Shown here one piece after another: positions 2,547 to 62,289 of a stretch of 64,000 nucleotides of DNA. Source of the stretch: Tetradesmus obliquus (taxonomy: Eukaryota; Chlorophyta; Chlorophyceae; Sphaeropleales; Scenedesmaceae). The notes under the pieces are model-generated. The model saw only the letters and a list, made by a program, of their open reading frames with translations. It was not told the DNA's origin and made no database searches. Positions within the stretch are counted from its first letter, which is position 1, and every line of letters begins with the position of its first letter. The position numbers were made by a program, and so were the translations under genes. Location: the NCBI GenBank assembly GCA_030272155.1, contig CP126204.1:1417501-1481500 (forward strand). The letters are read 5' to 3'.

Positions 2547-2750
2547 TGTCTGTGTCGACAATCCGTCACCTATTATTAGGCGTCTTGTGTAGGTGTCGTA
2601 ATGCTGCCTGTAAAGTGCAGCTTTTAGAGGTGTGCAAGTCACCATTTTTTTTTTGAAGCAAGAACGTTACAAGGGCTGACCTAAATAACTGTGCACTTGC
2701 TCCATAAAAAGATCTATTGCAAGTCACCATGCAGTGTTAGCTGACGGTTA
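2547..2750 (+). mobile_element. LINE 3'-UTR fragment with micro-insertion
   Basis: Plus-strand 3' UTR broken by a 73-nt minus-strand insertion (2646-2718: poly-T plus the last ~64 nt of the LINE). The duplicated target is gcaagtcaccat (2634-2645 and 2719-2730). The fragment stops at ctgacggtta, where the spliced LINE copy begins; in the other copies of this block the sequence continues cgccatgg. Confidence 0.75.
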
Positions 2751-3262
2751 ATGGTATAGAGGCGCTGGAGTAGCCGCAGGAAAGTTTATTCGATAGAGTA
2801 TTGAATCGAGTGAATAGGCAACACACACACGTAGTCAACAAGGCCGTTTCGATTGATACTGAATTCCGTAGGTAAGCGTTTCATCGCAAAATATAAGCTA
2901 TATAAGCTATATCCGTTACATCGAAATGGTATAGAGGCGCTGGAGTAGCCGCAGCTGGGCATACGGTCTTTCGACAGCTCTGCCCTTGCGGTAACAGCCC
3001 TGTGGCACGCTGGAGCAGCAAGGACCCTTCACCAGCTGGACCTACTGTTTCTGCATGGCGAATTACGTTCGAAATCGACGTGCAGCCAGTGGCTGGCACG
3101 CGGGCGCGACACTCGCGCCGCATGGTGGGGGCAGCGCAGCTGCAGCGCGTCACTGTGCGCTCGGGCCTGGTGGATGCGTGGCGACACTGCAACCCGCACG
3201 CCAGGCAGCCTACGCATTACAGCTACCATGGCAGCGCAGCTGGCAGCAGCAACGCGGCAGCC

Positions 3263-3308
<46 letters not shown>

Positions 3309-6300
3309 TAACAGACGCTACAGCCACAGCTCATGCTGCAGCCGCGGCGGCTGCAGTAGCGGCTGCAGCAGCAGCAGGCAGCAGGCGAGATCAGGGCCAG
3401 CCAGCAGCAGCAAATCAAGCCACGTCAGCCGGCAGGATTGACTATGTCTTCTTGTCAGCAGACCTGGTTGAGGAGGGCTGGCTGCAGAAGGCCACACAGC
3501 ACATGAGGCAGCCTTCAGATCACCGCCCTGTGGTTGTCAAGCTGCGGCCGCCTGGCATGCCGCTCCTTGGACAGCGCAGGTGGTGCTTCCCCACCTCTGC
3601 TCTGGGTGGCGCAGCTTTTGTCTCAGCTATGCAGGAGAGCCTGTCAGCAGCGGTGGAGCAGCAGCAGCAGCAGCGGCCGCGCAACAACCCAGCAGCTGAG
3701 TTTGAGCACCTTAAGCAGCATGCTGTGACTGCCACTGCAGTCATAATGCAGCGACAGAGGCTGCAGCAGCAGGCAGAACTTAGGCGGCTGCGCAGGGCGG
3801 TGGCAACAGCCGGCTGGCAGCAGCGCCAGCACAGCAATGGGCAGACGCAAACCAACCTTCAGCATGCAGAACAGCAGTTGCTGGATTATGAAGTGCAGCA
3901 ACGCCAGCAGCAGCAGGAGAAGACTGATGCGATGTACGAGCTGTACGCTGATGGCCCGTCTAGCTTTTGGGGAGCGAGGCTAGGGCAGGCCGTGCCGGAG
4001 CCGCAGTATATCAGCGCTGTGGCTGCAGCAGATGGCACCACAGTGTCCACTGGCAGCAGCGAGGGCGCGGCAGCAGCAGGCAGCCTGCTTGCAGACTTTT
4101 ATGACCCTGCAGAAGACGGGCTGTTCTCGCGACGCCCCACCGACCCACAGCAGCAGCAGGAGCTGCTTGCGTGTGTGGATAAGCAGCTTTCTTCGGAGCA
4201 GCAACAGCAATGCCTGGGCCCTGCAGGCGACGGCACCATCACCTTGGAGGAGGCGACAGCGGCACTCAACAGCATGCCTAGAGGGAAGGTGCCAGGCAGC
4301 GATGGGCTCACGTATGAGTTCTATAGCGCATTCTGGGAGCAGCTAGGACCAGCTTTTGTGGCAGCATGCAACTTCCGGTTTGGTCTGGAGGGGGCGCTGC
4401 TGTCTCCGCAGCAGCGCCTTGGGCTCATCACCTTACTGTTCAAGGGTGGCGGTAAGCCAAGGGACCAGGCTGCCAGCTACCGCCCCATCACGCTGATGAA
4501 CTGTGATGTGAAAATTCTGGCGAAGGTGGTGGTGCTGCGGGCGGCGCCAGTGCTGGACAGCGTCGTGGACAGCACTCAGACAGCGTTTGTTCCAGGCAGG
4601 GACATTGCAGACAATGTGCTGCTGCACCTGGAGGAAGTTGACTTCCTCAGGACGCAGCAGCAGCCCGGCTGCATTTTGTTTCTGGATTTTGAGAAGGCCT
4701 ATGACAGGCTAGACAGGGAATGGCTGATGAAGTGCATGGCAGCAATGCAGTTCCCGCCAGGCATGCGTAGGTGGGTACAGCTGCTGCTGGCAGGCACACA
4801 GGGCCGCATCGTGTTCAACGGCGGCCACCTCAGCAGGGTGTTTGACATCCCCTCTGGCTGCGCGCAGGGCAGCCCACTCAGCCCGCTGCTGTATGTGCTA
4901 GCAGCGCAGCCGCTGGCGGCCAAATGCAGAGCGCTGCAAGCAGCAGGGGAAGTGGACAGCATCAGCATGCCCGACGGCTCAGCAGCACCCTGCAGCATGC
5001 AGCATGCAGACGACACCACCCTGCACGCCGCCAGCAGGCAAGGCGTTGCTGTGCTGGTGAGGAAAGCAGTACAGCCGTTTTGTGCAGCGAGTGGCGCCAA
5101 GCTGGGAGTCAGCAAGTGCCAGGGCATGGAAGTGGGCACGCAGCAGCCGTTTGTAGGGGTAGATCCAGCCACGCAGATACCGTTCCATGATACAGCACTA
5201 CACCCGATCAGGCACCTGGGTCTGCTGCTGTCAGCAGCAGGCGCAGAGCCGCATGCAGCAGCGCTGTACACGCAGCGCCTGCAAACCATCACATACCGGG
5301 CGCGGCAGTGGGCACGGCAGAATCTCAGCTATTTGGGGCGCTGCGCAGTTGCGCAGCAGATGATGGCATCTTGCATCACCTATCATGCGCAGTTCGTGCC
5401 AGTCCCAGTAGATATCATGGCCAGGATGCACCGCCGCCTCTTAGGGTTTGTGACAGAGCAGGGCTGCGCTCGAGAAGCCAACATCCGGCAGTGGAATGAA
5501 AGCCCTCCGGCAGCAGTGGCCAGCCTGCCTTTCAGCATGGGCGGAATGAGGCAGGTTGATGTCAGGGCGCACGCCACAGCAATGCAGGCACGTACAGCAG
5601 CAGCATTGCTGTCGCCGCGGCGAGCCCCATGGAAGGCCTTCATGCGGGCCAACCTGCGCCACGCACTGCCAGGACTAGGGGAGGCAGCGTTGGTGCAGCG
5701 ATCAAAGGCGCCGCTGCAGGCTGCCGCCAGGGGCGGCAGGCTGCCGCTGCGCCTATCAGCATACATAGAGGCGCTGCAAAGCGTGGGCATTCACAGGCAC
5801 GTCGAGCACAGCGCCATGACCAGCCAGCAGATCCAGCTTGAGCTGCTGGTGGGGAACCACAGCGTGGGCAGCAGCTCAGATGGGCAGATGTTGGCAGCAG
5901 CCGGTGCCCTCCCTGCTCAGCTGCGCCACGGCGCAGGCACCACACTGGGGCAGGTGCAGCAGCAGCTAACTGGACAGCCGCAGCAAGATGGCATTGTGCT
6001 GCCGCCGGCATGGCTGCACACTCTGCGGGAGGGCAGCACAGGTGCATGGCAGACCGACACGCAGCAACAGTGGGCACAACAGTTGCAGCACGACGGCACC
6101 ACCAAGTGCTACAAGGTGCAGCAGGATGGCAGCTTGAAGGCCACAACAGCTGTCCTAATGGACACAGCAGCCCTCCAATGGGCGCCATGTTGTGTGGTAG
6201 ATGTAACAGCAGTGCCGCACCCTGCATTTCAGCGGCAACAACAGCAGCGGCAGCAGCGGCAGCAGCAGCAGCAACAGCGGCAGCAGCCAGCAGCACGGCA

Positions 6301-6444
6301 ACAGCGGCAGCCACGACAGCAGCAACAACAGGAACGTCAGCAGCAGCAGCTGCAGCAGCCAGCTGCATGGCAACAGCAGCAGCCGCGACAGCAGCAACAA
6401 CAGGAACGGCAGCAGCAGCAGCAGCAGCAGCAGCACCACCAGGG

Positions 6445-6510
<66 letters not shown>

Positions 6511-8741
6511 CCAAGGACAGCACCAGCAACAGCAGCAGCAGCAGCAATCGCGAAGCACGCCGTCATGGTACCTGGTGGGGGCTTGGGCAGACATTCGCGT
6601 AGATCCTAGTGTATGGGGGATGGGGTTTGCTGTCAGCTTGCTGCAGTTCACGCCAAAGGTGGCAACATGCAGGCTGCTGCAGGAGCAATGCAGTCGGCAG
6701 TGCAAAGAGGGATGGCTATCAGGTGTCGGCATGCGCCCGCGCCTGTGGCGCAACCGCCTGGGTGCTGAGGCGCCACAGGACGGCTTGCAGGAGATGGAGG
6801 CAGCTCAGAAACGGTCCTTCCAGCAAATGCAGCAAAATAGCGAGGCGCCTGGCAATCGTAGCAGCAGCAGCAGTGGCAGCCAGCGGTTTAGCGACGCAGC
6901 TATGATGGCGGCTTACCATGCGTCCTGGATGGATCCGTCCAGGGAGCGGGAGCTGCCAAGACAGCGCGCGGCAACAGCAGCAGCAGTAGTCACGGCTCAA
7001 CGGCAGCAACAGGAGCAGCAACAGCAGCGCATCAGCTGCCCAGCACACAATGATCTACTGGACCCGATCACTCACTCCATGGGTGCTGCCAATGCCATGC
7101 AGCACCGCTGGGTGGCGAGTTATCAGCGGCTAAAAGACACCCAGCTGCCGAGGCGGCTGCGAGTGTTTGGCTGGCGGCTTCTGCATGCAGGAGTGAAGGT
7201 AGGCGCACGGCGCATGCTGGCATCCAGCAGACACGCGCCGGCTCACTTTACCTGCCCAGCACAGCAGTGCCAGCAGCCGCAGCAACTGGAGACCCTCACC
7301 CACTTGTTAGTGGAGTGCCCTGTAGCTGCAGCAGCGTGGCAGTGGTACGCGCAACAGGTGTGGCAGCGTGTGCAGCCCGGAGCAGTGGTCCCTGTTAATA
7401 ACAGCCGTCTGCTGCTGCTGGATGACTTCAGTGTGTGGGCCCCGCCAGCAGGGCAGCAGCAGATGTGGACGCAGCTGCGTCTGCTGCTGCTGGAGTCCAT
7501 TTGGGTGGTGCGCTGCAGCAGCATCAGGGCTGGCGTGATTGTGGCCAGTGCAGATGGCAGCGATGGCAGCGGCAGCCGCAATGCAGGCAGCAATTCTCAA
7601 TCTCAGAGCCACGGCATCAGCGATGCAGAGGACAGCAGCAGCAACAGCAGCAGCATGGGCAGTCAACGGGGTACAACTGGCGAGCCGGGCAGCTCATCAT
7701 ACGCTGCTAAGGCTGTGGCGTGTAGGTTTCTGGCAGAGCTGCGGCAGCAAATTCAGAGGGAGTGGGATAGGGTGGAAGTAGATGTTAGGATAGGTTGTGG
7801 GATACCGTTTGCATGGCTGCAGGGAAGGTCGCCTGAGATCAAACTTGTTGACTTTGAGCAGAAGTGGGGAGCACTGTATAGGATGGGCGCAAATGGGCGC
7901 ATCAAGGTTCGGGCCAGCGCGGCTGGCATGTGAGGGATGGATTGGGCACGGGTCTACGAGGCGTGGTGGTCTGTTTTGACGGTTCGGGCGGGGTGTACAA
8001 TGCATCCGTTGGAGTAGTGGCCGTCGTTCCTCGTTGTGATGTGTTGCAAAATAGTATGGCAAAGGCTAAGTTGATGGCCGGGATACGTTATGTATGCATG
8101 TGAGTGGGTAGCAGAGTACGTTATGTATGCGTGCGTGTGGGTAGCAGTGTACGAGGATGTGTGCAGCATGTGTGGATTAGTTTGTGTGTGTGTGGCTTTG
8201 TGTGCCTGAGGTGGTGTCATTTCCTACAGAATGCCACATATCTCATAGGGGTATGTTCGGTCAGTAGCAGGATGTGCTTTGCATGAAGTGGAGAGTCTAT
8301 GAATAGTCAGGTGGGGATTGTCTGTGTCGACAATCCGTCACCTATTAATAGGCGTCTTGTGTAGGTGTCGTAATGCTGCCTGTAAAGTGCAGCTTTTAGA
8401 GGTGTGCAAGTCACCATGCAGCGATAGATAACAGTTACGCTATGCTGACAGTTTTTGTTTCAAGGGCCAGTCACGGTCTGTCACACATCACAGGACGTCA
8501 TTGCGCGACTGTGCTTTTAGTGGAGTCTGGGCACTCGGTCAGGTCCTGGATGCCTTTCGGGGCTGCTCCGCACGGGGCTGTCTGCATGATCGTGTGACAG
8601 CGTCTCTTGGTGCAAGAGACCTGTGGAGTGAGTGCGGAACAGGTTGCCTCACTCTCTCAATGGATCTTTTTATGGAGCAAGTGCACGGTTATTTAGGTCA
8701 GCCCTTGTAACGATCTTGCTTCAAAAAAAAAAAAAAAAAAA
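2751..8741 (+). mobile_element. LINE copy derived from a spliced transcript
   Basis: The 5' UTR (2751-3070) is joined at 3070/3071 directly to ORF2 codon 177. The missing part corresponds to 34,214-37,020 of the intact element, which begins GTGAGC and ends TTGCAG. ORF1 and most of the endonuclease are therefore absent. ORF2 then continues to TGA 7933, followed by a 3' UTR and 19 A residues (8723-8741). The first 29 bp (2751-2779) repeat the 5' UTR at 2926-2954. No target duplication links the two ends: left flank ctgacggtta, right flank tgggccacgagg. The right end was probably exchanged by recombination between 3' UTRs. Confidence 0.85.
3071..7933 (+). pseudogene. ORF2 lacking endonuclease start (spliced copy)
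   Basis: This is ORF2 from codon 177 to the end, uninterrupted for 1,620 codons. The frame stays open upstream into the 5' UTR but has only a GTG there (3002); the first in-frame ATG is at 3122, ORF2 codon 194. Missing endonuclease residues include the VNVNG asparagines, the glutamate of LSETH and GGDFN; the later RIDYV and SDHRP motifs remain. The reverse transcriptase is complete, with FLDFEKAYD and an HADD box, and so is the C-terminal Cx4Cx10Hx4C motif. If translated it would give a reverse transcriptase without a working endonuclease. I call it a pseudogene because it has no normal start. Confidence 0.85.
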
Positions 8742-9294
8742 TGGGCCACGAGGAAAAATTTTTTTTTTTTTTTTTTTTTGAAGCAAGAACGTTATTTTTT
8801 TTTTTTTTTTTTTTTTTTGAAGCAAGAACGTTACAAGGGCTGACCTAAATAACCGTGCACTTGCTCCATAAAAAGATCCATTGAGAGAATGAGGCAACCT
8901 GTTCCGCACTCACTCCACAGGTCTCTTGTACCAAGAGACGCTGTCACACGATTTTTTTTTTACGTTACAAGGGCGGACCTAAATAACCGTGCACTTGCTC
9001 CATAAAAAGATCCATTGAGAGAATGAGGCAACCTGTTCCGCACTCACTCCACAGGTCTCTTGTACCAAGAGACGCTGTCACACGATCATGCAGACAGCCC
9101 CTTGCGGAGCAGCCCCGAAAGGCATCCAGGACCTGACCGAGTGCCCAGACTCCACTAAAATCACAGTCGCGCAATGACGTCCTGTGATGCGTGACAGACC
9201 GTGACTGGCCCTTGAATCAAAATCCGTCCATGGCGCAACTGTCAGCTATCACTGCATGGTGACTTGTACACCTCTACAAGCTGCACTTTACAGG
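8742..9294 (-). mobile_element. Stacked minus-strand LINE 3' fragments
   Basis: After a satellite scrap (tgggccacgaggaaaaa) come poly-T, a 15-nt LINE end (8780-8794), poly-T and minus 3' UTR (8819-8951). A further T10 starts a second minus 3' UTR (8962-9294). The second unit restarts at the LINE terminus, and its far side coincides with the host sequence at ctgtcacacgat, so its 5' junction is seamless. This block is a paralogue of 2,135-2,546. Confidence 0.7.
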
Positions 9295-26083: not shown

Positions 26084-26086
<3 letters not shown>

Positions 26087-26094
26087 AACAAGTG

Positions 26095-26884
26095 GGTGAG
26101 GGTCTCCAGTTGCTGCGGCTGCTGGCACTGCTGTGCTGGGCAGGTAAAGTGAGCCGGCGCGTGTCTGCTGGATGCCAGCATGCGCCGTGCGCCTACCTTC
26201 ACTCCTGCATGCAGAAGCCGCCAGCCAAACACTCGCAGCCGCCTCGGCAGCTGGGTGTCTTTTAGCCGCTGATAACTCGCCACCCAGCGGTGCTGCATGG
26301 CATTGGCAGCACCCATGGAGTGAGTGATCGGGTCCAGTAGATCATTGTGTGCTGGGCAGCTGATGCGCTGCTGTTGCTGCTCCTGTTGCTGCCGTTGAGC
26401 CGTGACTACTGCTGCTGCTGTTGCCGCGCGCTGACTTGGCAGCTCCCGCTCCCTGGACGGATCCATCCAGGACGCATGGTAAGCCGCCATCATAGCTGCG
26501 TCGCTAAACCGCTGGCTGCCACTGCTGCTGCTGCTACGATTGCCAGGCGCCTCGCTATTTTGCTGCATTTGCTGGAAGGACCGTTTCTGAGCTGCCTCCA
26601 TCTCCTGCAAGCCGTCCTGTGGCGCCTCAGCACCCAGGCGGTTGCGCCACAGGCGCGGGCGCATGCCGACACCTGATAGCCATCCCTCTTTGCACTGCCG
26701 ACTGCATTGCTCCTGCAGCAGCCTGCATGTTGCCACCTTTGGCGTGAACTGCAGCAAGCTGACAGCAAACCCCATCCCCCATACACTAGGATCTACGCGA
26801 ATGTCTGCCCAAGCCCCCACCAGGTACCATGACGGCGTGCTTCGCGATTGCTGCTGCTGCTGCTGTTGCTGGTGCTGTCCTTGG

Positions 26885-26944
<60 letters not shown>

Positions 26945-29900
26945 CCCTGGTGGTGCTGCTGCTGCTGCTGCTGCTGCTGCCGTTCCTGTTGTTGCTGCTG
27001 TCGCGGCTGCTGCTGTTGCCATGCAGCTGGCTGCTGCAGCTGCTGCTGCTGACGTTCCTGTTGTTGCTGCTGTCGTGGCTGCCGCTGTTGCCGTGCTGCT
27101 GGCTGCTGCCGCTGTTGCTGCTGCTGCTGCCGCTGCTGCCGCTGCTGTTGTTGCCGCTGAAATGCAGGGTGCGGCACTGCTGTTACATCTACCACACAAC
27201 ATGGCGCCCATTGGAGGGCTGCTGTGTCCATTAGGACAGCTGTTGTGGCCTTCAAGCTGCCATCCTGCTGCACCTTGTAGCACTTGGTGGTGCCGTCGTG
27301 CTGCAACTGGTGTGCCCACTGTTGCTGCGTGTCGGTCTGCCATGCACCTGTGCTGCCCTCCCGCAGAGTGTGCAGCCATGCCGGCGGCAGCACAATGCCA
27401 TCTTGCTGCGGCTGTCCAGTTAGCTGCTGCTGCACCTGCCCCAGTGTGGTGCCTGCGCCGTGGCGCAGCTGAGCAGGGAGGGCACCGGCTGCTGCCAACA
27501 TCTGCCCATCTGAGCTGCTGCCCACGCTGTGGTTCCCCACCAGCAGCTCAAGCTGGATCTGCTGGCTGGTCATGGCGCTGTGCTCGACGTGCCTGTGAAT
27601 GCCCACGCTTTGCAGCGCCTCTATGTATGCTGATAGGCGCAGCGGCAGCCTGCCGCCCCTGGCGGCAGCCTGCAGCGGCGCCTTTGATCGCTGCACCAAC
27701 GCTGCCTCCCCTAGTCCTGGCAGTGCGTGGCGCAGGTTGGCCCGCATGAAGGCCTTCCATGGGGCTCGCCGCGGCGACAGCAATGCTGCTGCTGTACGTG
27801 CCTGCATTGCTGTGGCGTGCGCCCTGACATCAACCTGCCTCATTCCGCCCATGCTGAAAGGCAGGCTGGCCACTGCTGCCGGAGGGCTTTCATTCCACTG
27901 CCGGATGTTGGCTTCTCGAGCGCAGCCCTGCTCTGTCACAAACCCTAAGAGGCGGCGGTGCATCCTGGCCATGATATCTACTGGGACTGGCACGAACTTC
28001 GCATGATAGGTGATGCAAGATGCCATCATCTGCTGCGCAACTGCGCAGCGCCCCAAATAGCTGAGATTCTGCCGTGCCCACTGCCGCGCCCGGTATGTGA
28101 TGGTTTGCAGGCGCTGCGTGTACAGCGCTGCTGCATGCGGCTCTGCGCCTGCTGCTGACAGCAGCAGACCCAGGTGCCTGATCGGGTGTAGTGCTGTATC
28201 ATGGAACGGTATCTGCGTGGCTGGATCTACCCCTACAAACGGCTGCTGCGTGCCCACTTCCATGCCCTGGCACTTGCTGACTCCCAGCTTGGCGCCACTC
28301 GCTGCACAAAACGGCTGTACTGCTTTCCTCACCAGCACAGCAACGCCTTGCCTGCTGGCGGCGTGCAGGGTGGTGTCGTCTGCATGCTGCATGCTGCAGG
28401 GTGCTGCTGAGCCGTCGGGCATGCTGATGCTGTCCACTTCCCCTGCTGCTTGCAGCGCTCTGCATTTGGCCGCCAGCGGCTGCGCTGCTAGCACATACAG
28501 CAGCGGGCTGAGTGGGCTGCCCTGCGCGCAGCCAGAGGGGATGTCAAACACCCTGCTGAGGTGGCCGCCGTTGAACACGATGCGGCCCTGTGTGCCTGCC
28601 AGCAGCAGCTGTACCCACCTACGCATGCCTGGCGGGAACTGCATTGCTGCCATGCACTTCATCAGCCATTCCCTGTCTAGCCTGTCATAGGCCTTCTCAA
28701 AATCCAGAAACAAAATGCAGCCGGGCTGCTGCTGCGTCCTGAGGAAGTCAACTTCCTCCAGGTGCAGCAGCACATTGTCTGCAATGTCCCTGCCTGGAAC
28801 AAACGCTGTCTGAGTGCTGTCCACGACGCTGTCCAGCACTGGCGCCGCCCGCAGCACCACCACCTTCGCCAGAATTTTCACATCACAGTTCATCAGCGTG
28901 ATGGGGCGGTAGCTGGCAGCCTGGTCCCTTGGCTTACCGCCACCCTTGAACAGTAAGGTGATGAGCCCAAGGCGCTGCTGCGGAGACAGCAGCGCCCCCT
29001 CCAGACCAAACCGGAAGTTGCATGCTGCCACAAAAGCTGGTCCTAGCTGCTCCCAGAATGCGCTATAGAACTCATACGTGAGCCCATCGCTGCCTGGCAC
29101 CTTCCCTCTAGGCATGCTGTTGAGTGCCGCTGTCGCCTCCTCCAAGGTGATGGTGCCGTCGCCTGCAGGGCCCAGGCATTGCTGTTGCTGCTCCGAAGAA
29201 AGCTGCTTATCCACACACGCAAGCAGCTCCTGCTGCTGCTGTGGGTCGGTGGGGCGTCGCGAGAACAGCCCGTCTTCTGCAGGGTCATAAAAGTCTGCAA
29301 GCAGGCTGCCTGCTGCTGCCGCGCCCTCGCTGCTGCCAGTGGACACTGTGGTGCCATCTGCTGCAGCCACAGCGCTGATATACTGCGGCTCCGGCACGGC
29401 CTGCCCTAGCCTCGCTCCCCAAAAGCTAGACGGGCCATCAGCGTACAGCTCGTACATCGCATCAGTCTTCTCCTGCTGCTGCTGGCGTTGCTGCACTTCA
29501 TAATCCAGCAACTGCTGTTCTGCATGCTGAAGGTTGGTTTGCGTCTGCCCATTGCTGTGCTGGCGCTGCTGCCAGCCGGCTGTTGCCACCGCCCTGCGCA
29601 GCCGCCTAAGTTCTGCCTGCTGCTGCAGCCTCTGTCGCTGCATTATGACTGCAGTGGCAGTCACAGCATGCTGCTTAAGGTGCTCAAACTCAGCTGCTGG
29701 GTTGTTGCGCGGCCGCTGCTGCTGCTGCTGCTCCACCGCTGCTGACAGGCTCTCCTGCATAGCTGAGACAAAAGCTGCGCCACCCAGAGCAGAGGTGGGG
29801 AAGCACCACCTGCGCTGTCCAAGGAGCGGCATGCCAGGCGGCCGCAGCTTGACAACCACAGGGCGGTGATCTGAAGGCTGCCTCATGTGCTGTGTGGCCT

Positions 29901-30080
29901 TCTGCAGCCAGCCCTCCTCAACCAGGTCTGCTGACAAGAAGACATAGTCAATCCTGCCGGCTGACGTGGCTTGATTTGCTGCTGCTGGCTGGCCCTGATC
30001 TCGCCTGCTGCCTGCTGCTGCTGCAGCCGCTACTGCAGCCGCCGCGGCTGCAGCATGAGCTGTGGCTGTAGCGTCTGTTA

Positions 30081-30132
<52 letters not shown>

Positions 30133-30852
30133 GGCTGCCGCGTTGCTGCTGCCAGCTGCGCTGCCATGGTAGCTGTAATGCGTAGGCTGCCTGGCGTGCG
30201 GGTTGCAGTGTCGCCACGCATCCACCAGGCCCGAGCGCACAGTGACGCGCTGCAGCTGCGCTGCCCCCACCATGCGGCGCGAGTGTCGCGCCCGCGTGCC
30301 AGCCACTGGCTGCACGTCGATTTCCTGCAAGGCACAGTTGAAGTCCCCGCCCACAATCAGGCTGGACCCCTGCGCGCCTGCCTCCAGTGCCTCCTGATAA
30401 GGCCCCTGAAGCCAGGCTGGGCGCCCCGTGGGTTCGTGCGGCGCATACACCGCCACCGCTGCCACCTGCCGGCCCCACGGCGTTGTCCAGGCTACCCTGA
30501 GTAACCTGCCCTGCCCGTCTGTAAACTCAATCACAGGTTCTGTGTCCTGTTGAACTATTCTCTGACTTAGCAGTACTGCCACCCCAACTGAAGCTTGTAC
30601 GCCAACTTCCAAGGGTTTGCTATTTGCATAGCAGTACCCTTGCCACGGCCTGCCGTGCCCTGCTCCCTGCTGCGCCCACTGCTGCATCTGCTGGTCGGAC
30701 CTGCTGTGGGTTTCTGAAAGCAAAACAACATCAGACGCCTGTTTCTGCAGCCAAGCAAAGAAATCCCTTCGCTTGCCTGCAGCAGCCAAGCCGTTGACAT
30801 TGACAGCTGCCACGCAGAAGGGCCGCAGTCCGTGCGCTCCTGCTGGCGGCAT
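26095..30852 (-). pseudogene. ORF2 main segment of split minus element
   Basis: Begins MPPAGAHGLRP at 30,852, overlapping the ORF1 stop by one base (TAATG). Order: endonuclease (VNVNG, LSETH, GGDFN, RIDYV, SDHRP), Ala-rich insert, Gln-rich linker, reverse transcriptase (FLDFEKAYD, PSGCAQGSPLSP, HADD), long Gln/Arg tract and the first half of the zinc motif. It is cut at HLLV by the insertion at 25,863, after which the frame reads into poly(A)/poly-T-derived codons. Otherwise no stop or frameshift is seen. Confidence 0.9.
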
Positions 30853-33896: not shown

Positions 33897-33988
33897 GCCA
33901 CAACGGTTGAAACTTCCTAGGTCAGTCCTAGGACAATAATGGATCAACTTTCACGAAGCACACCTAGCACATTTCCATTATGGGCCAC
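33897..33988. repeat. Satellite-like segment inside the LINE target duplication
   Basis: The segment ends cacatttccattatgggccac, written here as cacatttcc then attatgggccac, a diverged satellite piece. It belongs to the inserted cDNA rather than the flank, because the target copy lies to its left. It could be upstream satellite carried in a longer transcript, or a template jump onto satellite RNA. Confidence 0.65.
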
Positions 33989-34360
33989 GTTTCGATTGAT
34001 ACTGAATTCCGTAGGTAAGCGTTTCATCGCAAAATATAAGCTATATAAGCTATATTCGTTAAATCGAAATGGTATAGAGGCGCTGGAGTAGCCGCAGCTG
34101 GGCCTACGGTCTCGCGACAGCTCTGCCCTTGCGGTAACAGCTCTGAGGCACGCTGGAGCAGCAAGGACCCTTCGTCAGCTGGACCTACTGTTTCTGCATG
34201 GCGAATTACGTTCGTGAGCTGAGCTGGAGAGCTTGCATGCAGTTGAGCTGGGCATGCCAGTGACAGCAGCAGCAGCAGCAGCAGCAGCAGCGGCAACAGC
34301 ACCAGGGAAGGCAATCACTTGCTGCACCGCTCTCCGGCTCTGTATAGCATACCTGGTTAG

Positions 34361-35356
34361 ATGTTTTCAGTGCATGAGAGTAGAATGCTTCACAGCAACA
34401 GCATGTGGGGACAGGGGCAGCAGCAGCCACGCAGTCTTCACAGGCGGCAGCAGCTGCATCAATGCCAGCAGCACAGGCGGGTACCGGCGGCGCCTGCACG
34501 CCCCCGATGCCCGGGGGGCAACTGGCGCCTCTCACCAAGCCGGTTGCTATCTTCCAGCAAACTGCAGGCACAACCCATGCTGACAGCAGACCCCCCAGCA
34601 CTCAGCGGCCTATGCGCGCTCAGCATGCGTCTGTATGTGGGCGAGGCACAGCAGCAGTACAAGGGAAGTAACCAGCAGCATATGGCCATGGCCTATGCAT
34701 CGCAGTACCGGCTGCTGACGACAGCAATAACTCAGCGAGGCCAGCAGCAGGACGGTCCAGGCTGCAGCACCTTCATGCAGCTCGCGCAGGCACACCGCAT
34801 GTGCAGCACAGAGGAGGCGAAGGGCAGCAGCGGGTATGTGGACCTGCTGCTGCAGCCTGCCAACGTTGCGGTTGCAGCTGCAATGCAGTGCATAAAGAAC
34901 GGCGGTGTAGAGGTGGCGGACCGCCGTATCCGAGCGGGCTGGTCACCAGCAGCAGCAGAGCCGGATGAAGCAGTACGCATCGTCTTCGCCAACCCGCCGC
35001 TGCACCAGGCACGGAAAGGGTTCACACATGTGGTGCTAGCAGCGGCAGGATACCGCCACCTGAGGGTGGTTCACGAGCAGCTGGGTTGCAGCCGGCAGAC
35101 TGGAAATGCAGCAGAGCGCGTCCCATGCGCTGACAGCATTGTAGCCTTTGTGGATGCAGAGGACGCGGACCTCGTTCTGCGCAAACTGCCGGACGCCTTT
35201 GAGGTGCCCGGCAGGCCCGGGCTGCCTACCACCATCTTTGTGGACGGCCGCACGGCGCAGCAGCCGCAGCGATGGGCAGAGGAGCAGCTGGTACAACTGG
35301 AGATACGGCAGCTGGGCCGTGAACTACAGCAGGAACTGCTGCTGGAGACAGAACAG

Positions 35357-35388
<32 letters not shown>

Positions 35389-35481
35389 GCAGCGGCAGCA
35401 GCACCAGGAGCAGCAGCAACAGCATCACAACGCAGGTGATGTTGCTATGGAAGACGCGGCTGCCCTGGCCGATGCGTTAAC

Positions 35482-35516
<35 letters not shown>

Positions 35517-35652
35517 TGCAACCACCCCAGCAGCTGCAACAGCAGCAGCAGACTGTTGATGATGCAGAGATGGAGGACGCGCATGTGCAGTCAGGAGCAG
35601 CCATACCTCGACAGCTGCCGTTGCAGCAGCAACAACAACACCTGCTGCAAAT

Positions 35653-35705
<53 letters not shown>

Positions 35706-35812
35706 CCACAGCGCAGACTGCTGCTGCCTGCATGGACGCAGCATTCCCTCTGGACCCGTTTGCCCAACAGCCGGATGCAGCTGCCGCCACAGCCACGCCA
35801 GCAGGAGTAGCC

Positions 35813-35853
<41 letters not shown>

Positions 35854-36493
35854 GATAGCCCGGCCAGGCCAATGCCACACGGAGATGGTGGAGGCCCTCA
35901 GCGATACCCTGCAGGGAAAACTGGACAGTGGCCAGTTCACTGAGCAGGTGAAGGGAGATATGCTGAGTGCGTTCTACATGCAGCATGGTGCAGCCTTAGT
36001 GTCTAAAGCAGAAGAGGCGCTGTTTGTGCAGCAGTGGCTGCAGCAGCACTTCCCTGCTGTTGCAGCAGCCTCATACGAGGATGCTGAGTATGGTAGTGGA
36101 GGGATGAGCACAGCAGCGGCTGGAGCAACGGCAGCAGCAGACAGCAACACACCTCAGGGCAGGGGCCAGGGGGCTAAGGGTAGGACGGCGCGGCAGTCTG
36201 CTGCAACAGCAGCTGCAGCAGCAGCTGCAGCAGCAGCAGCAGCGGCGAAGTCGGCCAGGACAGCAACACCAGCAGCAGCAGGTGCAGCATCGTCACCACC
36301 CGAAGGGCGCTACCCCAGCCGGCAGCGCAAGGAGCCAAACCCTGTCTTTGGCCACAACGTCAACAAGTTTGCAGTACTAGCGTCAATGCCGCAGCAGCAG
36401 CACCACAGCACAATAGTAACAGCGACACAGCCAGCTACGCAGCCTGCCACTCCAGCACAGAAGTCCCGCCTTCGCGGCGGGCGCGGCTCTTAA
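34361..36493 (+). CDS. LINE ORF1 protein (710 aa)
   Basis: First ORF of the intact element. In L1-type elements ORF1 protein binds the element RNA. Starts at ATG 34,361 (MFSVHESRM). Residues up to about 320 are the conserved, mixed-composition part, where VRIVFANPPL and SIVAFVDAEDADLVLRKL resemble strands and helix of an RNA-recognition fold; this is a weak impression only. Then come several Gln tracts encoded by CAG, an Ala tract, a conserved acidic/helical part (SDTLQGKLDSGQ) and a basic tail ending SRLRGGRGS. I see no CCHC knuckle. TAA 36,491-36,493 shares its last A with the ORF2 start. Confidence 0.85.
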
Positions 36494-36495
36494 TG
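36491..36495 (+). promoter_or_regulatory. ORF1 stop / ORF2 start overlap (TAATG)
   Basis: TAA of ORF1 and ATG of ORF2 share one base. The same overlap is present at 30,852 and 59,723 on the minus strand, so it is conserved in all three copies that still have this region. It fits termination-reinitiation as the way ORF2 is translated, known from other LINEs and from some dsRNA viruses. Confidence 0.8.
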
Positions 36496-37225
36496 CCGCC
36501 AGCAGGAGCGCACGGACTGCGGCCCCTCTGCGTGGCAGCTGTCAATGTCAACGGCTTGGCTGCTGCAGGCAAGCGAAGGGATTTCTTTGCTTGGCTGCAG
36601 AAGCAGGCGTCTGATGTTGTGTTGCTTTCAGAAACCCACAGCAGGTCCGACCAGCAGATGCAGCAGTGGGCGCAGCAGGGAGCAGGGCAAGGCAGGCCGT
36701 GGCAAGGGTACTGCTATGCAAATAGCAAGCCCTTGGAAGCTGGCGTACAAGCTTCAGTTGGGGTGGCAGTACTGATAAGTCAGAAAATAGTTCAACAGGA
36801 CACAGAACCTGTGATTGAGTTTACAGACGGGCAGGGCAGGTTACTCAGGGTAGCCTGGACAACGCCGTGGGGCCAGCAGATGGCAGCGGTGGCTGTGTAT
36901 GCGCCGCACGAACCCACGGGGCGCCCAGCCTGGTTTCAGGGGCCTTATCAGGAGGCACTGGAGGCAGGCGCGCAGGGGTCCAGCCTGATTGTGGGCGGGG
37001 ACTTCAACTGTGCCTTGCAGGAAATCGACGTGCAGCCAGTGGCTGGCACGCGGGCGCGACACTCGCGCCGCATGGTGGGGGCAGCGCAGCTGCAGCGTGC
37101 CACTGTGCGCTCGGGCCTGGTGGATGCGTGGCGACACTGCAACCCGCACGCCAGGCAGCCTACGCATTACAGCCACCATGGCAGCGCAGCTGGCAACAGC
37201 AACGCGGCAGCCGCAACAACAACAT

Positions 37226-37258
<33 letters not shown>

Positions 37259-40200
37259 CACTAACAGACGCTACAGCCACAGCTCATGCTGCAGCCGCGG
37301 CGGCTGCAGCAGCGGCTGCAGCAGCAGCAGGCAGCAGGCGAGGTCAGGGGCAGCCAGCCGCAGCAAATCAAGCCACGTCAGCCGGCAGGATTGACTATGT
37401 CTTCTTGTCAGCGGACCTGGTTGAGGAGGGCTGGCTGCAGAAGGCCACACAGCACATGAGGCAGCCCTCAGATCACCGCCCTGTGGTTGTCAAGCTGCGG
37501 CCGCCTGGCATGCCGCTCCTTGGACAGCGCAGGTGGTGCTTCCCCACCTCTGCTCTGGGTGGCGCAGCCTTTGTCTCAGCTATGCAGGAGAGCCTGTCAG
37601 CAGCTGTGGAGCAGCAGCAGCAGCAGCGGCCGCGCAACAACCCAGCAGCTGAGTTTGAGCACCTTAAGCAGCATGCCGTGACTGCCACTGCAGTCATGAT
37701 GCAGCGACAGAGGCTGCAGCAGCAGGCAGAACTTAGGCGGCTGCGCAGGGCGGTGGCAACAGCCGAATGGCAGCAGCGCCAGCACAGCAATGGGCAGACG
37801 CAAACCAACCTTCAGCATGCGGAACAGCAGTTGCTGGATTATGAAGTGCAGCAACGCCGGCAGCAGCAGGAGAAGACTGATGCGATGTACGAGCTGTACG
37901 CTGATGGCCCGTCTAGCTTTTGGGGAGCGAGGCTAGGGCAGGCCGTGCCGGAGCCGCAGTATATCAACGCTGTGGCTGCAGCAGATGGCACCACAGTGTC
38001 CACTGGCAGCAGCGAGGGCGCGGCAGCAGCAGGCAGCCTGCTTGCAGACTTTTATGACCCTGCAGAAGACGGGCTGTTCTCGCGACGCCCCACCGACCCA
38101 CAGCAGCAGCAGGAGCTGCTTGCGTGTGTGGATAAGCAGCTTTCTTCGGAGCAGCAGCAGCAATGCCTGGGCCCTGCAGGCGACGGCACCATCACCTTGG
38201 AGGAGGCGACAGCGGCACTCAACAGCATGCCTAGAGGGAAGGTGCCAGGCAGCGATGGGCTCACGTATGAGTTCTATAGCGCATTCTGGGAGCAGCTAGG
38301 ACCAGCTTTTGTGGCAGCATGCAACTTCCGGTTTGGTCTGGAGGGGGCGCTGCTGTCTCCGCAGCAGCGCCTTGGGCTCATCACCCTACTGTTCAAGGGT
38401 GGCGGTAAGCCAAGGGACCTGGCTGCCAGCTATCGCCCCATCACGCTGATGAACTGTGATGTGAAAATTCTGGCGAAGGTGGTGGTGCTGCGGGCGGCGC
38501 CAGTGCTGGACAGCGTCGTGGACAGCACTCAGACAGCGTTTGTTCCAGGCAGGGACATTGCAGACAATGTGCTGCTGCACCTGGAGGAAGTTGACTTCCT
38601 CAGGACGCAGCAGCAGCCCGGCTGCATTTTGTTTCTGGATTTTGAGAAGGCCTATGACAGGCTAGACAGGGAATGGCTGATGAAGTGCATGGCAGCAATG
38701 CAGTTCCCGCCAGGCATGCGTAGGTGGGTACAGCTGCTGCTGGCAGGCACACAGGGCCGCATCGTGTTCAACGGCGGCCACCTCAGCAGGGTGTTTGACA
38801 TCCCCTCTGGCTGCGCGCAGGGCAGCCCACTCAGCCCGCTGCTGTATGTGCTAGCAGCGCAGCCGCTGGCGGCCAAATGCAGAGCGCTGCAAGCAGCAGG
38901 GGAAGTGGACAGCATCAGCATGCCCGATGGCTCAACAGCACCCTGCAGCATGCAGCATGCAGACGACACCACCCTGCACGCCGCCAGCAGGCAAGGCGTT
39001 GCTGTGCTGGTGAGGAAAGCAGTACAGCCATTTTGTGCAGCGAGTGGCGCCAAGCTGGGAGTCAGCAAGTGCCAGGGCATGGAAGTAGGCACGCAGCAGC
39101 CGTTTGTAGGGGTAGATCCAGCCACGCAGATACCGTTCCATGACACAGCACTGCACCCGATCAGGCACCTGGGTCTGCTGCTGTCAGCAGCAGGCGCAGA
39201 GCCGCATGCAGCAGCGCTGTACACGCAGCGCCTGCAAACCATCACATACCGGGCGCGGCAGTGGGCGCGGCAGAATCTCAGCTATTTGGGGCGCTGCGCA
39301 GTTGCGCAGCAGATGATGGCATCTTGCATCACCTATCATGCGCAGTTCGTGCCAGTCCCAGTAGATATCATGGCCAGGATGCACCGCCGCCTCTTAGGGT
39401 TTGTGACAGAGCAGGGCTGCGCTCGAGAAGTCAACATCCGGCAGTGGAATGAAAGCCCTCCGGCAGCAGTGGCCAGCCTGCCTTTCAGCATGGGCGGAAT
39501 GAGGCAGGTTGATGTCAGGGCGCACGCCACGGCAATGCAGGCACGCACAGCAGCAGCATTGCTGTCGCCGCGGCGAGCCCCGTGGAAGGCCTTCATGCGG
39601 GCCAACCTGCGCCATGCACTGCCAGGACTAGGGGAGGCAGCGTTGGTGCAGCGCTCAAAGGCGCCGCTGCAGGCTGCCGCCAGGGGCGGCAGGCTGCCGC
39701 TGCGCCTATCAGCATACATAGAGGCGCTGCAAAGCGTGGGCATTCACAGGCACGTCGAGCACAGCGCCATGACCCGCCAGCAGATCCAGCTTGAGCTGCT
39801 AGTGGGGAACCACAGCGTGGGCAGCAGCTCAGATGGGCAGATGTTGGCAGCAGCCGGTACCCTCCCTGCTCAGCTGCGCCACGGCGCAGGCACCACACTG
39901 GGGCAGGTGCAGCAGCAGCTAACTGGACAACCGCAACAAGATGGCATAGTGCTGCCGCCGGCATGGCTGCGCACTCTGCGGGAGGGCAGCACAGGTGCAT
40001 GGCAGACCGACACGCAGCAACAGTGGGCACAACAGTTGCAGCACGATGGCACCACCAAGTGCTACAAGGTGCAGCAGGATGGCAGCTTGAAGGCCACAAC
40101 AGCTTTCCTAATGGACACAGCAGCCCTCCAATGGGCGCCATGTTGTGTGGTAGATGTAACAGCAGTGCCGCACCCTGCATTTCAGCGGCAACAACAGCAG

Positions 40201-40288
40201 CGGCAGCAGCGACTGCAGCAGCAGCAGCAGCGGCAGCAGCCAGCAGCACGGCAACAGCGGCAGCCACGACAGCAGCAACAACAGGAAC

Positions 40289-40322
<34 letters not shown>

Positions 40323-40329
40323 CCGGGGA

Positions 40330-40373
<44 letters not shown>

Positions 40374-41793
40374 CCAAGGACAGCAACAGCAACAGCAGCA
40401 GCAATCGCAAAGCACGCCGGCATGGTACCTGGTGGGTGCTTGGGCAGACATTCGCGTAGATCCTAGTGTATGGGGGATGGGGTTTGCTGTCAGCTTGCTG
40501 CAGTTCACGCCAAAGGTGGCAACATGCAGGCTGCTGCAGGAGCAATGCAGTTGGCAGTGCAAAGAGGGATGGGTATCGGGTGTCGGCATGCGCCCGCGCC
40601 TGTGGCGCAACCGCCTGGGTGCTGAGGCGCCACAGGACGGCTTGCAGGAGATGGAGGCAGCTCAGAAACGGTCCTTCCAGCAAATGCAGCAAAGTAGCGA
40701 GGCGCCTGGCAATCGCCGCAGCAGCAGCAGTGGCAGCCAGCGGTTTAGCGACGCAGCTATGATGGCAGCTTACCATGCGTCCTGGATGGATCCGTCCAGG
40801 GAGCGGGAGCTGCCAAGACAGCGCGCGGCAACAGCAGCAGCAGTAGTCACGGCTCAACGGCAGCAACAGGAGCAGCAACAGCAGCGCATCAGCTGCCCAG
40901 CACACAATGATCTTCTGGACCCGATCACTCACTCCATGGGTGCTGCCAATGCCAGGCAGCACCGCTGGGTGGCGAGTTATCAGCGGCTGAAAGACACCCA
41001 GCTGCCGAGGCGGCTGCGAGTGTTTGGCTGGCGGCTTCTGCATGCAGGAGTGAAGGTAGGCGCACGGCGCATGCTGGCATCCAGCAGGCACGCGCCGGCT
41101 CACTTTACCTGCCCAGCACAGCAGTGCCAGCAGCCGCAGCAACTGGAGACCCTCACCCACTTGTTAGTGGAGTGCCCTGTAGCTGCAGCAGCGTGGCAGT
41201 GGTACGCGCAACAGGTGTGGCAGCGTGTGCAGCCCGGAGCAGTGGTCCCTGTTAATAACAGCCGTCTGCTGCTGCTGGATGACTTCAGTGTGTGGGCGCC
41301 GCCAGCAGGGCAGCAGCAGATGTGGACGCAGCTGCGTCTGCTGCTGCTGGAGTCCATTTGGGTGGTGCGCTGCAGCAGCATCAGGGCTGGCGTGACTGTG
41401 GCCAGTGCAGATGGCAGCGATGGCAGCGGCAGCCACAATGCAGGCAGCAATTCTCAATCTCAGAGCCACGGCATCAGCGATGCAGAGGACAGCAGCAGCA
41501 GCAGCAGCAGCAGCATGGGCAGTCAACGGGGTACAACTGGCGAGCCGGGCAGCTCATCATACGCTGCTAAGGCTGTGGCGTGTAGGTTTTTGGCAGAGCT
41601 GCGGCAGCAAATTCAGAGGGAGTGGGATAGGGTGGAAGTAGATGTTAGAATAGGTTGTGGGATACCGTTTGCATGGCTGCAGGGAAGGTCGCCTGAGATC
41701 AAACTTGTTGACTTTGAGCATAAGTGGGGAGCACTGTATAGGATGGGCGCAAATGGTCGCATCAAGGTTCGGGCCAGCGCGGCTGGCATGTGA
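36493..41793 (+). CDS. LINE ORF2 protein: endonuclease, reverse transcriptase, zinc motif
   Basis: 1,766 codons. Endonuclease of the apurinic type, residues 1 to ~345: VNVNG (N18, N20), E47 in LSETH, D170 and N172 in GGDFN, RIDYV and SDHRP; an Ala-rich insert lies within it. Reverse transcriptase from about 590: LFKGGGKP, SYRPITLMN, D716 in FLDFEKAYD, PSGCAQGSPLSP, and HADD at 822-825, where most LINEs have YADD or FADD. A CAG-coded Gln/Arg tract lies around 1240-1305. The zinc motif C1540-x4-C1545-x10-H1556-x4-C1561 is typical of L1-type plant and algal LINEs. Translation probably depends on reinitiation at TAATG. The endonuclease nicks target DNA and the reverse transcriptase copies the element RNA there. 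Confidence 0.93.
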
Positions 41794-44411: not shown

Positions 44412-44866
44412 AGGTGATAGTAATAGTAGTAATGAATCGATTGAATAGGCAACACACACACGTAGTCAACAAGGCCGTTTCGATTGATACTGAATTCCGT
44501 AGGTATGCGTTTCATCGCAAAATATAAGCTATATAAGCTATATCCGTTACATCGAAATGGTATAGAGGCGCTGGAGAAGCCGCAGCTGGGCATACGGTCT
44601 TTCGACAGCTCTGCCCTTGCGGTAACAGCTCTGTGGCACGCTGGAGCAGCAAGGACCCTTCACCAGCTGGACCTACTGTTTCTGCATGGCGAATTACGTT
44701 CGTGAGCTGCGCTGGAGAGCTTGCCTGCAGCTGAGCTGGGCGTGCCAGTGACAGCAGCAGCAGCAGCAGCAGCAGCAGCGGCAACAGCACCAGGGAAGGC
44801 AATCACTTGCTGCACCGCTCTCCGGCTCTGTATAGCATTCCTGGTTAGATGTTTTCAGTACATGAG

Positions 44867-44962: not shown

Positions 44963-44993
<31 letters not shown>

Positions 44994-58993: not shown

Positions 58994-59723
58994 ATGTTGT
59001 TGCGGCTGCCGCGTTGCTGCTGCCAGCTGCGCTGCCATGGTAGCTGTAATGCGTAGGCTGCCTGGCGTGCGGGTTGCAGTGTCGCCACGCATCCACCAGG
59101 CCCGAGCGCACCGTGACGCGCTGCAGCTGCGCTGCCCCCACCATGCGGCGCGAGTGTCGCGCCCGCGTGCCAGCCACTGGCTGCACGTCGATTTCCTGCA
59201 AGGCACAGTTGAAGTCCCCGCCCACAATCAGGCTGGACCCCTGCGCGCCTGCCTCCAGTGCCTCCTGATAAGGCCCCTGAAACCAGGCTGGGCGCCCCGT
59301 GGGTTCGTGCGGCGCATACACAGCCACCGCTGCCACCTGCTGGCCCCACGGCGTTGTCCAGGCTACCCTGAGTAACCTGCCCTGCCCGTCTGTAAACTCA
59401 ATCACAGGTTCTGTGTCCTGTTGAACTATTTTCTGACTTAGCAGTACTGCCACCCCAACTGAAGCTTGTACGCCAACTTCCAAGGGCTTGCTATTTGCAT
59501 AGCAGTAGCCTTGCCACGGCCTGCCGTGCCCTGCTCCCTGCTGCGCCCACTGCTGCATCTGCTGGTCGGACCTGCTGTGGGTTTCTGAAAGCAACACAAC
59601 ATCAGACGCCTGCTTCTGCAGCCAAGCAAAGAAATCCCTTCGCTTGCCTGCAGCAGCCAAGCCGTTGACATTGACAGCTGCCACGCAGAGGGGCCGCAGT
59701 CCGTGCGCTCCTGCTGGCGGCAT
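54369..59723 (-). CDS. LINE ORF2 protein (1,784 aa), intact
   Basis: Complete ORF2 with the same domain order as the plus-strand copy at 36,493: endonuclease motifs VNVNG, LSETH, GGDFN, RIDYV and SDHRP; reverse transcriptase FLDFEKAYD, PSGCAQGSPLSP and HADD; and the Cx4Cx10Hx4C motif near the C-terminus. It is 18 residues longer, mainly through an extra Gln/Pro-rich unit (PQQPAAWQQQQPRQ) and different Gln-run lengths. Subfamily marker GADGRIKV. The Arg in RLDRGW replaces nothing catalytic; other copies have RLDREW. Starts by TAATG overlap with ORF1. Confidence 0.93.
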
Positions 59724-60495
59724 TAAGAGCCGCGCCCGCCGCGAAGGCGGGACTTCTGTGCTGGAGTGGCAGGCTGCGTAGCTGGCTGTGTCGCTGTTAC
59801 TATTGTGTTGTGGTGCTGCTGCTGCGGCAGTGACGCTAGTACTGCAAAGTTGTTGACGTTGTGGCCAAAGACAGGGTTTGGCTCCTTGCGCTGCCGGCTG
59901 GGGTAGCGCCCTACGGGTGGTGACGATGCTGCACCTGCTGCTGCTGGTGTTGCTGTCCTGGTCGACTTCGCCGCTGCTGCTGCTGCTGCAGCTGCTGCTG
60001 CAGCTGCTGTTGCAGCAGACTGCCGCGCCGTCCTACCCTTAGCCCCCTGGCCCCTGCCCTGAGCTGTGTTGCTGTCTGCTGCTGCCGTTGCTCCAGCCGC
60101 AGCTGTGCTCATCCCTCCCCTACCATACTCAGCATCCTCGTATGAGGCTGCTGCAACAGCAGGGAAGTGCTGCTGCAGCCACTGCTGCACAAACAGCGCC
60201 TCTTCTGCTTTAGACACTAAGGCTGCACCATGCTGCATGTAGAACGCACTCAGCATATCTCCCTTCACCTGCTCAGTGAACTGGCCACTGTCCAGTTTGC
60301 CCTGCAGGGTATCGCTGAGGGACTCCTCCATCTCCGTGTGGCATTGGCCTGGCCGGGCTATCTCTGCTGCTGCTGCTGCTGCTGCGGCGGCTGCTCCTGC
60401 TGGCGTGGCTGTGGCGGCAGCTGCATCCGGCTGCTGGGCAAACGGGTCCAGAGGGAATGCTGCATCCATGCAGGCAGCAGCAGTCTGCGCTGTGG

Positions 60496-60545
<50 letters not shown>

Positions 60546-60675
60546 AATCGCAGCAGGTGTTGTTGCTGCTGCGGCAACGGCAGCTGTCGAGGTATGGCTG
60601 CTCCTGACTGCACATGCGCGTCCTCCATCTCTGCATCATCACCAGTCTGCTGCTGCTGTTGCAGCTGCTGGGGCG

Positions 60676-60707
<32 letters not shown>

Positions 60708-61843
60708 GGCTGCTGTGTTAATGCATGGGCCAGGGCCGCCGCGTCTTCCATAGCAACATCATCTGCGTTGTGCTGCTGCTGCTGCTGCTCATGGTGCTGC
60801 TGCCGCTGCTGCTGCTGTTGTTGTTGTTGCTGCTGCTGCTGCTGCTGTGCTGTCTCCAGCAGCAGTTCCTGCTGTAGTTCACGGCCCAGCTGCCGTATCT
60901 CCAGTTGTACCAGCTGCTCCTCTTCCCATCGCTGCGGCTGCTGCGCCGTGCGGCCGTCCACGAAGATGGTGGTAGGCAGCCCGGGCCTGCCGGGCACCTC
61001 AAAAGCGTCCGGCAGTTTGCGCAGGATGAGGTCCGCGTCCTCTGCAGCCACAAAGGCTACAATGCTGTCAGCGCATGGGACGCGCGCTGCTGCATTTCCA
61101 GTCTGCCGGCTGCACCCCAGCTGCTCGTGAACCACCCTCAGGTGGCGGTATCCTGCCGCTGCTAGCACCACATGTGTGAACCCTTTCCGTGCCTGGTGCA
61201 GCGGCGGGTTGGCGAAGACGATGCGTACTGCTTCATCCGGCTCTGCTGCTGCTGGTGACCAGCCCGCGCGGATACGGCGGTCCGCCACCTCTACACCGCC
61301 GTTCTTTATGCACTGCATTGCGGCTGCAACCGCAACGTTGGCAGGCTGCAGCAGCAGGTCCACATACCCGCTGCTGCCCTTCGCCTCCTCTGTGCTGCAC
61401 ATGCGGTGTGCCTGCGCTAGCTGCATGAAGTTGCTGCAGCCTGGACCGTCCTGCTGCTGGCCTCGCTGAGTTATTGCTGTCGTCAGCAGCCGGTACTGCG
61501 ATGCATAGGCCTTGGCCATATGCTGCTGGTTACTTCCCTGGTACTGCTGCTGTGCCTCGCCCACATACAGACGCACGCTGAGCGCGCATAGGCCGCTGAG
61601 TGCTGGGGGGTCTCCTGTCAGCATGGGTTGTGCCTGCAGTTTGCTACAAGATAGCAACCGGCTTGGTGAGAAGCACCAGTTGCCCCCCGGGCATCGGGGG
61701 CGTGCAGGCGCCGCCGGTACCCGCCTGTGCTGCTGGCATTGATGCAGCTGCTGCTGTCGCTTGTGAATACTGTGTGGCTGCTGCTGCCCCTGTCCCCACA
61801 TGCTGTTGCTGTGAAGCATTCTACTCTCATGTACCGAAAGCAT
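59723..61843 (-). CDS. LINE ORF1 protein (706 aa), intact
   Basis: Complete ORF1 starting MLSVHESRM. Same build as the copy at 34,361: conserved first part, Gln tracts, Ala tracts, SDTLQGKLDSGQ region and basic tail. Gln and Ala runs differ in length by whole codons from the other two ORF1 copies, as expected for CAG/GCA slippage under frame selection. Likely an RNA-binding partner of ORF2; function inferred from position and family. Confidence 0.85.
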
Positions 61844-62289
61844 CTAACCAGGTATGCTATACAGAGCCGGAGAGCGGTGCAGCAAGTGATTGCCTTCCCT
61901 GGTGCTGTTGCCGCTGCTGCTGCTGCTGCTGCTGCTGCTGTCACTGGCACGCCCAGCTCAGCTGCATGCAAGCTCTCCAGCTCGGCTCACGAACGTAATT
62001 CGCCATGCAGAAACAGTAGGTCCAGCTGGTGAAGGGTCCTTGCTGCTCCAGCGTGCCGCAGAGCTGTTACCGCAAGGGCAGAGCTGTCGAAAGACCGTAT
62101 GCCCAGCTGCGGCTACTCCAGCGCCTCTATACCATTTCGATGTAACGGATATAGCTTATATAGCTTATATTTTGCGATGAAACGCTTACCTACGGAATTC
62201 AGTATCAATCGAAACGGCCTTGTTGACTACGTGTGTGTGTGTTGCCTATTCAATCCTTTCTCGTTAATCACAGGCAGCATCCCATTCGT
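61844..62289 (-). other. LINE 5' UTR
   Basis: About 445 nt. Contains the CAG-repeat stretch just upstream of ORF1, the GTGAGC donor in gaattacgttcgtgagc, a repeated tataagctatataagc motif and a two-codon upstream ORF (ATG GTA TAG). An internal promoter is expected for a LINE, but no clear promoter motif can be named beyond the AT-rich tataagc repeat. Confidence 0.6.

Follow-up and report, generated by a model that had tools for sequence, protein, structure and literature searches.

A LINE copy in Tetradesmus obliquus that probably derives from a spliced element transcript

Retroposed copies of spliced LINE RNA are known for human L1, where 131 of the 6,609 annotated full-length L1PA1-6 elements are such SpIREs, of either an intra-5'UTR or a 5'UTR/ORF1 type, in the portion of Larson et al. 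(2018; PMC5860796) drawn on here. According to the same text they are many, in general carry target site duplications, and include one class that was seen by RT-PCR. Green algae harbour Zepp and ZeppL, centromeric L1-type LINEs that lie in clusters (PMC8226300; Higashiyama, 1997, as cited there); the portion of PMC8226300 used here does not mention splicing of Zepp. Titles and abstract openings in the open-access literature gave, among the matches listed, no case of reinserted spliced LINE RNA outside mammals.

Here we analyse a LINE copy, J, in a window of 64,000 nucleotides (C14:1417501-1481500), with searches covering the genome of 104.7 Mb in 17 contigs. Judged from its sequence, J is a probable member of the SpIREs. 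As in the human copies, a donor in the 5'UTR would have been joined to a downstream acceptor, the copy starts at the 5' end and carries poly(A), coding sequence is lost, and the product is rare and probably a dead end. Unlike those described in PMC5860796, the putative splice passes over the whole of ORF1 and has its acceptor in the endonuclease of ORF2, and J represents a single event in which no duplication was found. The family recalls Zepp/ZeppL as described in PMC8226300, its copies being nested, mostly 5'-truncated and, on the seven contigs with two or more acceptor matches, clustered within 34-67 kb. If confirmed at the level of RNA, J would mean that cryptically spliced LINE RNA is reinserted in a green alga too and that such splicing can skip a whole ORF1; it would also be DNA evidence that transcription of this LINE begins at the element's 5' end and that its RNA comes into contact with the spliceosome.

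The LINE array and the junction of copy J

The window is a nested array of one LINE family, many of whose copies lack the 5' part and consist of a tail that ends in poly(A). A Pfam profile search finds an endonuclease (PF03372) and a reverse transcriptase (PF00078) in ORF2, and by these two domains and the poly(A) ends the family is of L1 type; for ORF1 the search gives no match at E 1e-3. The 22 protein relatives include three with a named organism, Scenedesmus sp. PABB004, and these show 37-39% identity. The features of the unspliced copies, of a truncated sibling and of J itself are as follows.

34361..36493, + strand: ORF1 of the + strand unspliced copy, 710 aa, glutamine-rich, wholly within the putative intron
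36184..41793, + strand: ORF2 frame of the same copy, stop to stop, with PF03372 and PF00078
34214..37020, + strand: putative intron of the same copy, GTGAGC...TTGCAG
59196..61990, - strand: equivalent putative intron of the - strand unspliced copy, from its alignment to J
26084..30324, - strand: exon-2 part of a 5'-truncated sibling in which the acceptor side is kept, from its alignment to J
2797..3070, + strand: exon-1 part of J, the 5'UTR from AGTATTGAATCGA to the donor, from alignment
3070..3071, + strand: junction ACGTTC/GAAATCG, from sequence and genome search
3071..8741, + strand: exon-2 part of J, the ORF2 remainder from within the endonuclease domain, the 3'UTR and poly(A)

Copies of the family were counted with a single 25-nt pattern at the acceptor, and all repeat counts are lower bounds. 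Among the matches listed, the pattern occurs on 11 of the 17 contigs: on four of them as a single match, and on the seven with two or more matches confined to 34-67 kb per contig, as would be expected of Zepp-type centromeres; six contigs have none.

Copy J occupies approximately positions 2797-8741 of the window and reads ...GGCGAATTACGTTC/GAAATCGACG at 3070/3071, a junction that fuses the 5'UTR to the interior of ORF2. In the + strand copy the two sites lie apart, as ACGTTC/GTGAGC at 34213/34214 and TTGCAG/GAAATC at 37020/37021: J 2845-3071 aligns to 33988-34214 with 96.0% identity, and J 3071-6468 to 37021-40403 with 97.6%. For the - strand copy the corresponding alignments are of J 2811-3071 to 62252-61990 (98.5%) and of J 3071-8874 to 59195-53434 (97.0%). 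Both window copies that have the two sites imply the same removal, of 2,807 nt for the + strand copy and 2,795 nt for the - strand copy, and both have GTGAGC after the first site and CTTGCAG before the second. The deletion can be placed in two equivalent ways, with 1 nt (G) shared, and one of these placements is GT...AG. The exact removal of 34,214-37,020 at 3070/3071 that was originally predicted is thus borne out by two copies that agree with each other, with an ambiguity of 1 nt. By sequence signals only, the loss is bounded exactly by a donor and an acceptor of an otherwise full-length LINE, the exon side of the donor being poor.

Putative splice signals and the other deletions of the family

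The signals were scored with a model trained on nine host introns, and the host scores quoted are those of the same nine. In all, 11 host introns were located, five in beta-tubulin and six in actin; actin introns 4 and 6, whose ends are ambiguous, were left out of the model, and beta-tubulin introns 3 and 5 were placed by eye. Under this nine-intron model the intron side of the J donor (+1 to +6) ranks first of the 427 GTs in the element, and the acceptor ranks 13th of the 927 AGs, with a score of 8.7, inside the range of the nine host acceptors (5.5-12.0). Among the host introns, beta-tubulin intron 1 has GTGAGC as its donor and actin intron 1 has CTTGCAG/G as its acceptor, and a branch-like CTGAT is found in the putative intron 33 nt from the acceptor. 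When three exon and seven intron positions are scored together, the J donor reaches 1.8 compared with 7.6-12.4 in all nine host donors; with its exon positions (TTC/GTGAGC) it ranks 75th of 426. The exon ends in TTC in J, compared with AG in seven of the nine host exons. On these scores the donor would be cryptic and weak. The acceptor falls within coding sequence, its pyrimidine tract is weak, and at 2.8 kb the putative intron is far above the placed host introns (159-534 nt).

We rejected an ancient conserved intron: the GGDFN motif is present in 21 of the 22 protein relatives, and only one of these 21 (P0001) has a glutamine at the acceptor place. Note that conservation of the splice sites among the LINE copies themselves tells little: the patterns used to pick the 14 donor and 23 acceptor loci include the sites, the copies are young, and the columns next to the sites are mostly invariant too.

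The prediction also held that a random deletion would rarely hit both splice points, and the calculated frequencies, of 1e-5 to 9e-5, bear this out. In simulation, 0.7% of 355,211 random deletions of at least 500 nt in the element can be placed as GT-AG, and a fraction of 2.5e-5 of the same deletions gives GTG[AC]G...GCAG. When start-end pairs at least 500 nt apart are enumerated, 369 of 32,995,626 (1.1e-5) match both splice-site scores of J and 2,847 (8.6e-5) match its summed score. Allowing for six junction classes, a chance explanation comes to the order of 7e-5 to 5e-4. These numbers weigh against a genomic account, in which end joining took 2.8 kb out of a normal full-length copy after its insertion and the breakpoints were splice-like by chance. 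Several features would suit such a deletion: a single event in an array full of rearrangements, a breakpoint homology of 1 nt as in end joining, a donor that is weak on the exon side, and the lack of a target site duplication that would tie J to a clean insertion. However, splice scores like these are expected about 1e-5 to 9e-5 times per deletion with six classes examined, and the other deletions in the family look different, and we consider this account unlikely.

The six classes come from a search for internal junctions in 135 kb around the window and in 40 loci, some of which overlap the 135-kb region. Hits of at least 60 nt and at least 85% identity were used, and joins with more than 15 nt between the pieces, as well as losses of 30 nt or less, were dropped. 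Only J is GT-AG, as checked by eye from the sequence context for the mini, 1733, 870 and 53-nt classes and by script for the 583 class. The breaks of the five other classes are marked by repeats, by homology of 2-4 nt or by inserted bases; the 53-nt class lies in repeats and its break is not clean. We also considered splicing for the other common deletion (34403/40198 type) and rejected it, since CAG-rich stretches are joined there with homology and there is no GT at the break.

The same comparison bears on another account without splicing, in which the reverse transcriptase would have switched template, either from one RNA to a second or along a single RNA. To judge from the filler that J and a mini copy carry at their 5' ends, such switches occur in the family, and the mini deletion at CAG-rich sequence could also be explained by a template jump. 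The breakpoints would still have to fall on GTGAGC and TTGCAG by chance, however, and the other internal junctions have more homology, repeats or inserted bases; we regard a switch of this kind as distinctly improbable.

The mini form is an internally deleted LINE in which 5.8 kb between CAG-rich stretches are lost. Five places carry it, four of them on contig C14 and the fifth on C15:

11206-14024 of the window: mini copy
44476-47292 of the window: mini copy
~47291-48204 of the window: mini copy
C14:1383776 region: mini copy
L048 (C15): mini copy

The 5' flanks differ among the four places that have a 5'UTR, and an apparent target site duplication of 11 nt is seen at one. From its sequence the mini form looks like a mobile non-autonomous derivative, and because it occurs at five places on two contigs, deleted forms probably moved in trans.

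Coding capacity of the joined copy

Two reading frames of J matter for its possible products.

2906..7933, + strand: stop-to-stop frame across the junction, with PF00078 found and PF03372 not, first in-frame ATG at 3122
3055..3441, + strand: 128-codon ORF of J that begins at an upstream ATG and is not in the ORF2 frame, end computed from its length

The long frame is open for 1620 codons from 3071. Its endonuclease homology (PF03372) is lost in a Pfam profile search, and the exon-1 leader has no in-frame ATG before 3122. Further upstream, the ATG at 2926 opens a frame of 2 codons. The ORF that starts at the equivalent of the 3055 ATG has 21 codons in the + strand unspliced copy, and in J it overlaps 3122. 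On paper, J could give a 1603-residue reverse transcriptase without endonuclease; with no in-frame AUG in the leader and an out-of-frame AUG ahead of it, translation of this protein would need leaky scanning or reinitiation.

The original prediction was that splicing takes away ORF1 and the start of the endonuclease and leaves the reverse transcriptase. This agrees with the annotation, in which ORF1 lies inside the putative intron, PF00078 is kept and PF03372 is lost. Its two functional suggestions fared less well. An endonuclease-free enzyme matches the homology that is kept and lost, but not a leader without in-frame AUG in which an out-of-frame AUG comes first; a brake on the element is unsupported, with 14 other exon-1 ends keeping the donor and one event seen. 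Both ideas can be combined in a standing alternative splice from 5'UTR to ORF2 in this clustered, possibly centromeric LINE, which would damp the full-length RNA and yield an endonuclease-less reverse transcriptase for nicks or tails that the array already has. The upstream AUG and the leader without in-frame AUG speak against it, as do an acceptor residue that is poorly conserved and the finding of one event only, and we give it very little credence. As regulation or as a new enzyme, J is of little importance on present evidence; it is probably a dead end rather than a regulator.

Copy J as a probable retrocopy, and recombination in the array

The start of J lies in a region that is common to unspliced copies on other contigs, and its poly(A) consists of 19 A at 8723-8741. 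Between the flank and the 5'UTR there is a short insertion:

2750..2779, + strand: 30-nt filler, identical to 2925-2954 in the element's own 5'UTR

This filler probably arose by a template switch at the 5' end. A mini copy near J has a comparable filler at its 5' end, together with an apparent 11-nt target site duplication, GATACCGTTTG. We found no target site duplication for J: when 147 nt from its 5' flank were compared with 40 nt from its 3' flank, the longest common word had 6 nt. The 3' flank of J recurs at the tails at 2134 and 19124, and may therefore be a product of rearrangement. Over 4,247 aligned columns, exon 2 of J and the sibling at 26084-30324 are separated by 3 substitutions and 12 gapped positions, and given this near-identity a source with the stretch that J lacks was probably active at about the same time as J.

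A genome search allowing up to 3 mismatches finds the J junction at two loci, 24.5 kb apart. The original prediction asked whether independent copies with different flanks share the junction. The second locus is the same event as J: C14:1388290-1401729 and C14:1412812-1426241 have 99.57% identity across 13.4 kb, of which ~7.5 kb lie upstream of J. The second locus (C14:1396045) has a 3' flank that differs from that of J in the window. Compared in 200-column bins, it shows 0 differences from J in 385 compared positions at C14:1398500-1399499, and in the 2,230 positions compared from 1399500 onward 31 differences from J but 6 from the mini copy; it ends in the 3' flank of the mini copy, whereas J in the window keeps its own 3' end. 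Two separate insertions were rejected on these grounds, the 5' flanks being duplicated over ~7.5 kb and the second locus being a J/mini recombinant, and the support expected from differing flanks falls away with them. The simplest reading of these sequences is that recombination in the array, not a second insertion, accounts for the second locus. The same locus bears on an assembly error that fused two copies. The nested repeats are highly similar and could invite one; however, the assembly contains the junction twice, and splice sites are not what an assembler would pick, which makes such an error extremely improbable.

A search for exon-1 ends that were not chosen by the site returned 16, of which 14 continue into GTGAGC and two are J. 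Ten of the 14 have the acceptor ~2.8 kb downstream and four are of the mini form. Exon-2 starts number six in the 135 kb around the window, four of them after TTGCAG and two after ACGTTC. The result would be one spliced event beside ten two-site copies, numbers too small for a rate.

Taken together, we think it likely that J arose by retroposition of a spliced LINE RNA, much as a SpIRE does. A full-length element would have been transcribed from its own 5'UTR, and the spliceosome would have joined the cryptic donor in the 5'UTR (the equivalent of 34213/34214) to the cryptic acceptor in the ORF2 endonuclease (37020/37021). The exact GTGAGC/TTGCAG junction suggests that this step removed ORF1 and the first part of the endonuclease. 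The shortened, polyadenylated RNA would then have been reverse-transcribed and inserted in trans by the machinery of intact copies, with a small template switch at the 5' end; we infer this step from the poly(A), the 5'UTR start and the 30-nt filler. Recombination in the array would later have produced the second, J/mini locus, the mosaic being observed and its place in the order presumed.

This origin, which was also the central claim of the prediction, is favoured by the exact GT-AG boundaries, the host-like intron side of the signals, the 1-nt homology, the low probability of chance and the contrast with the other deletion classes, which are not GT-AG. It is further favoured by the 5'UTR start and poly(A), the close sibling, and deleted forms that appear to have moved in trans. 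It is weakened by the single event, the poor exon side of the donor, the long intron, the lack of a target site duplication and the weak pyrimidine tract, and also by an acceptor that lies in coding sequence and whose glutamine place is shared by 1 of 21 relatives.

Two further observations concern the cluster as a whole. The recent duplication, with a J/mini recombinant at its edge, indicates that recombination between repeats remodels the cluster. In addition, three LINE 3' ends, at 2134, 8741 and 19124 of the window, have a common flank, TGGGCCACGAGGAAAA, followed by an inverted tail; this flank motif belongs to a repeat that is present elsewhere in the window.
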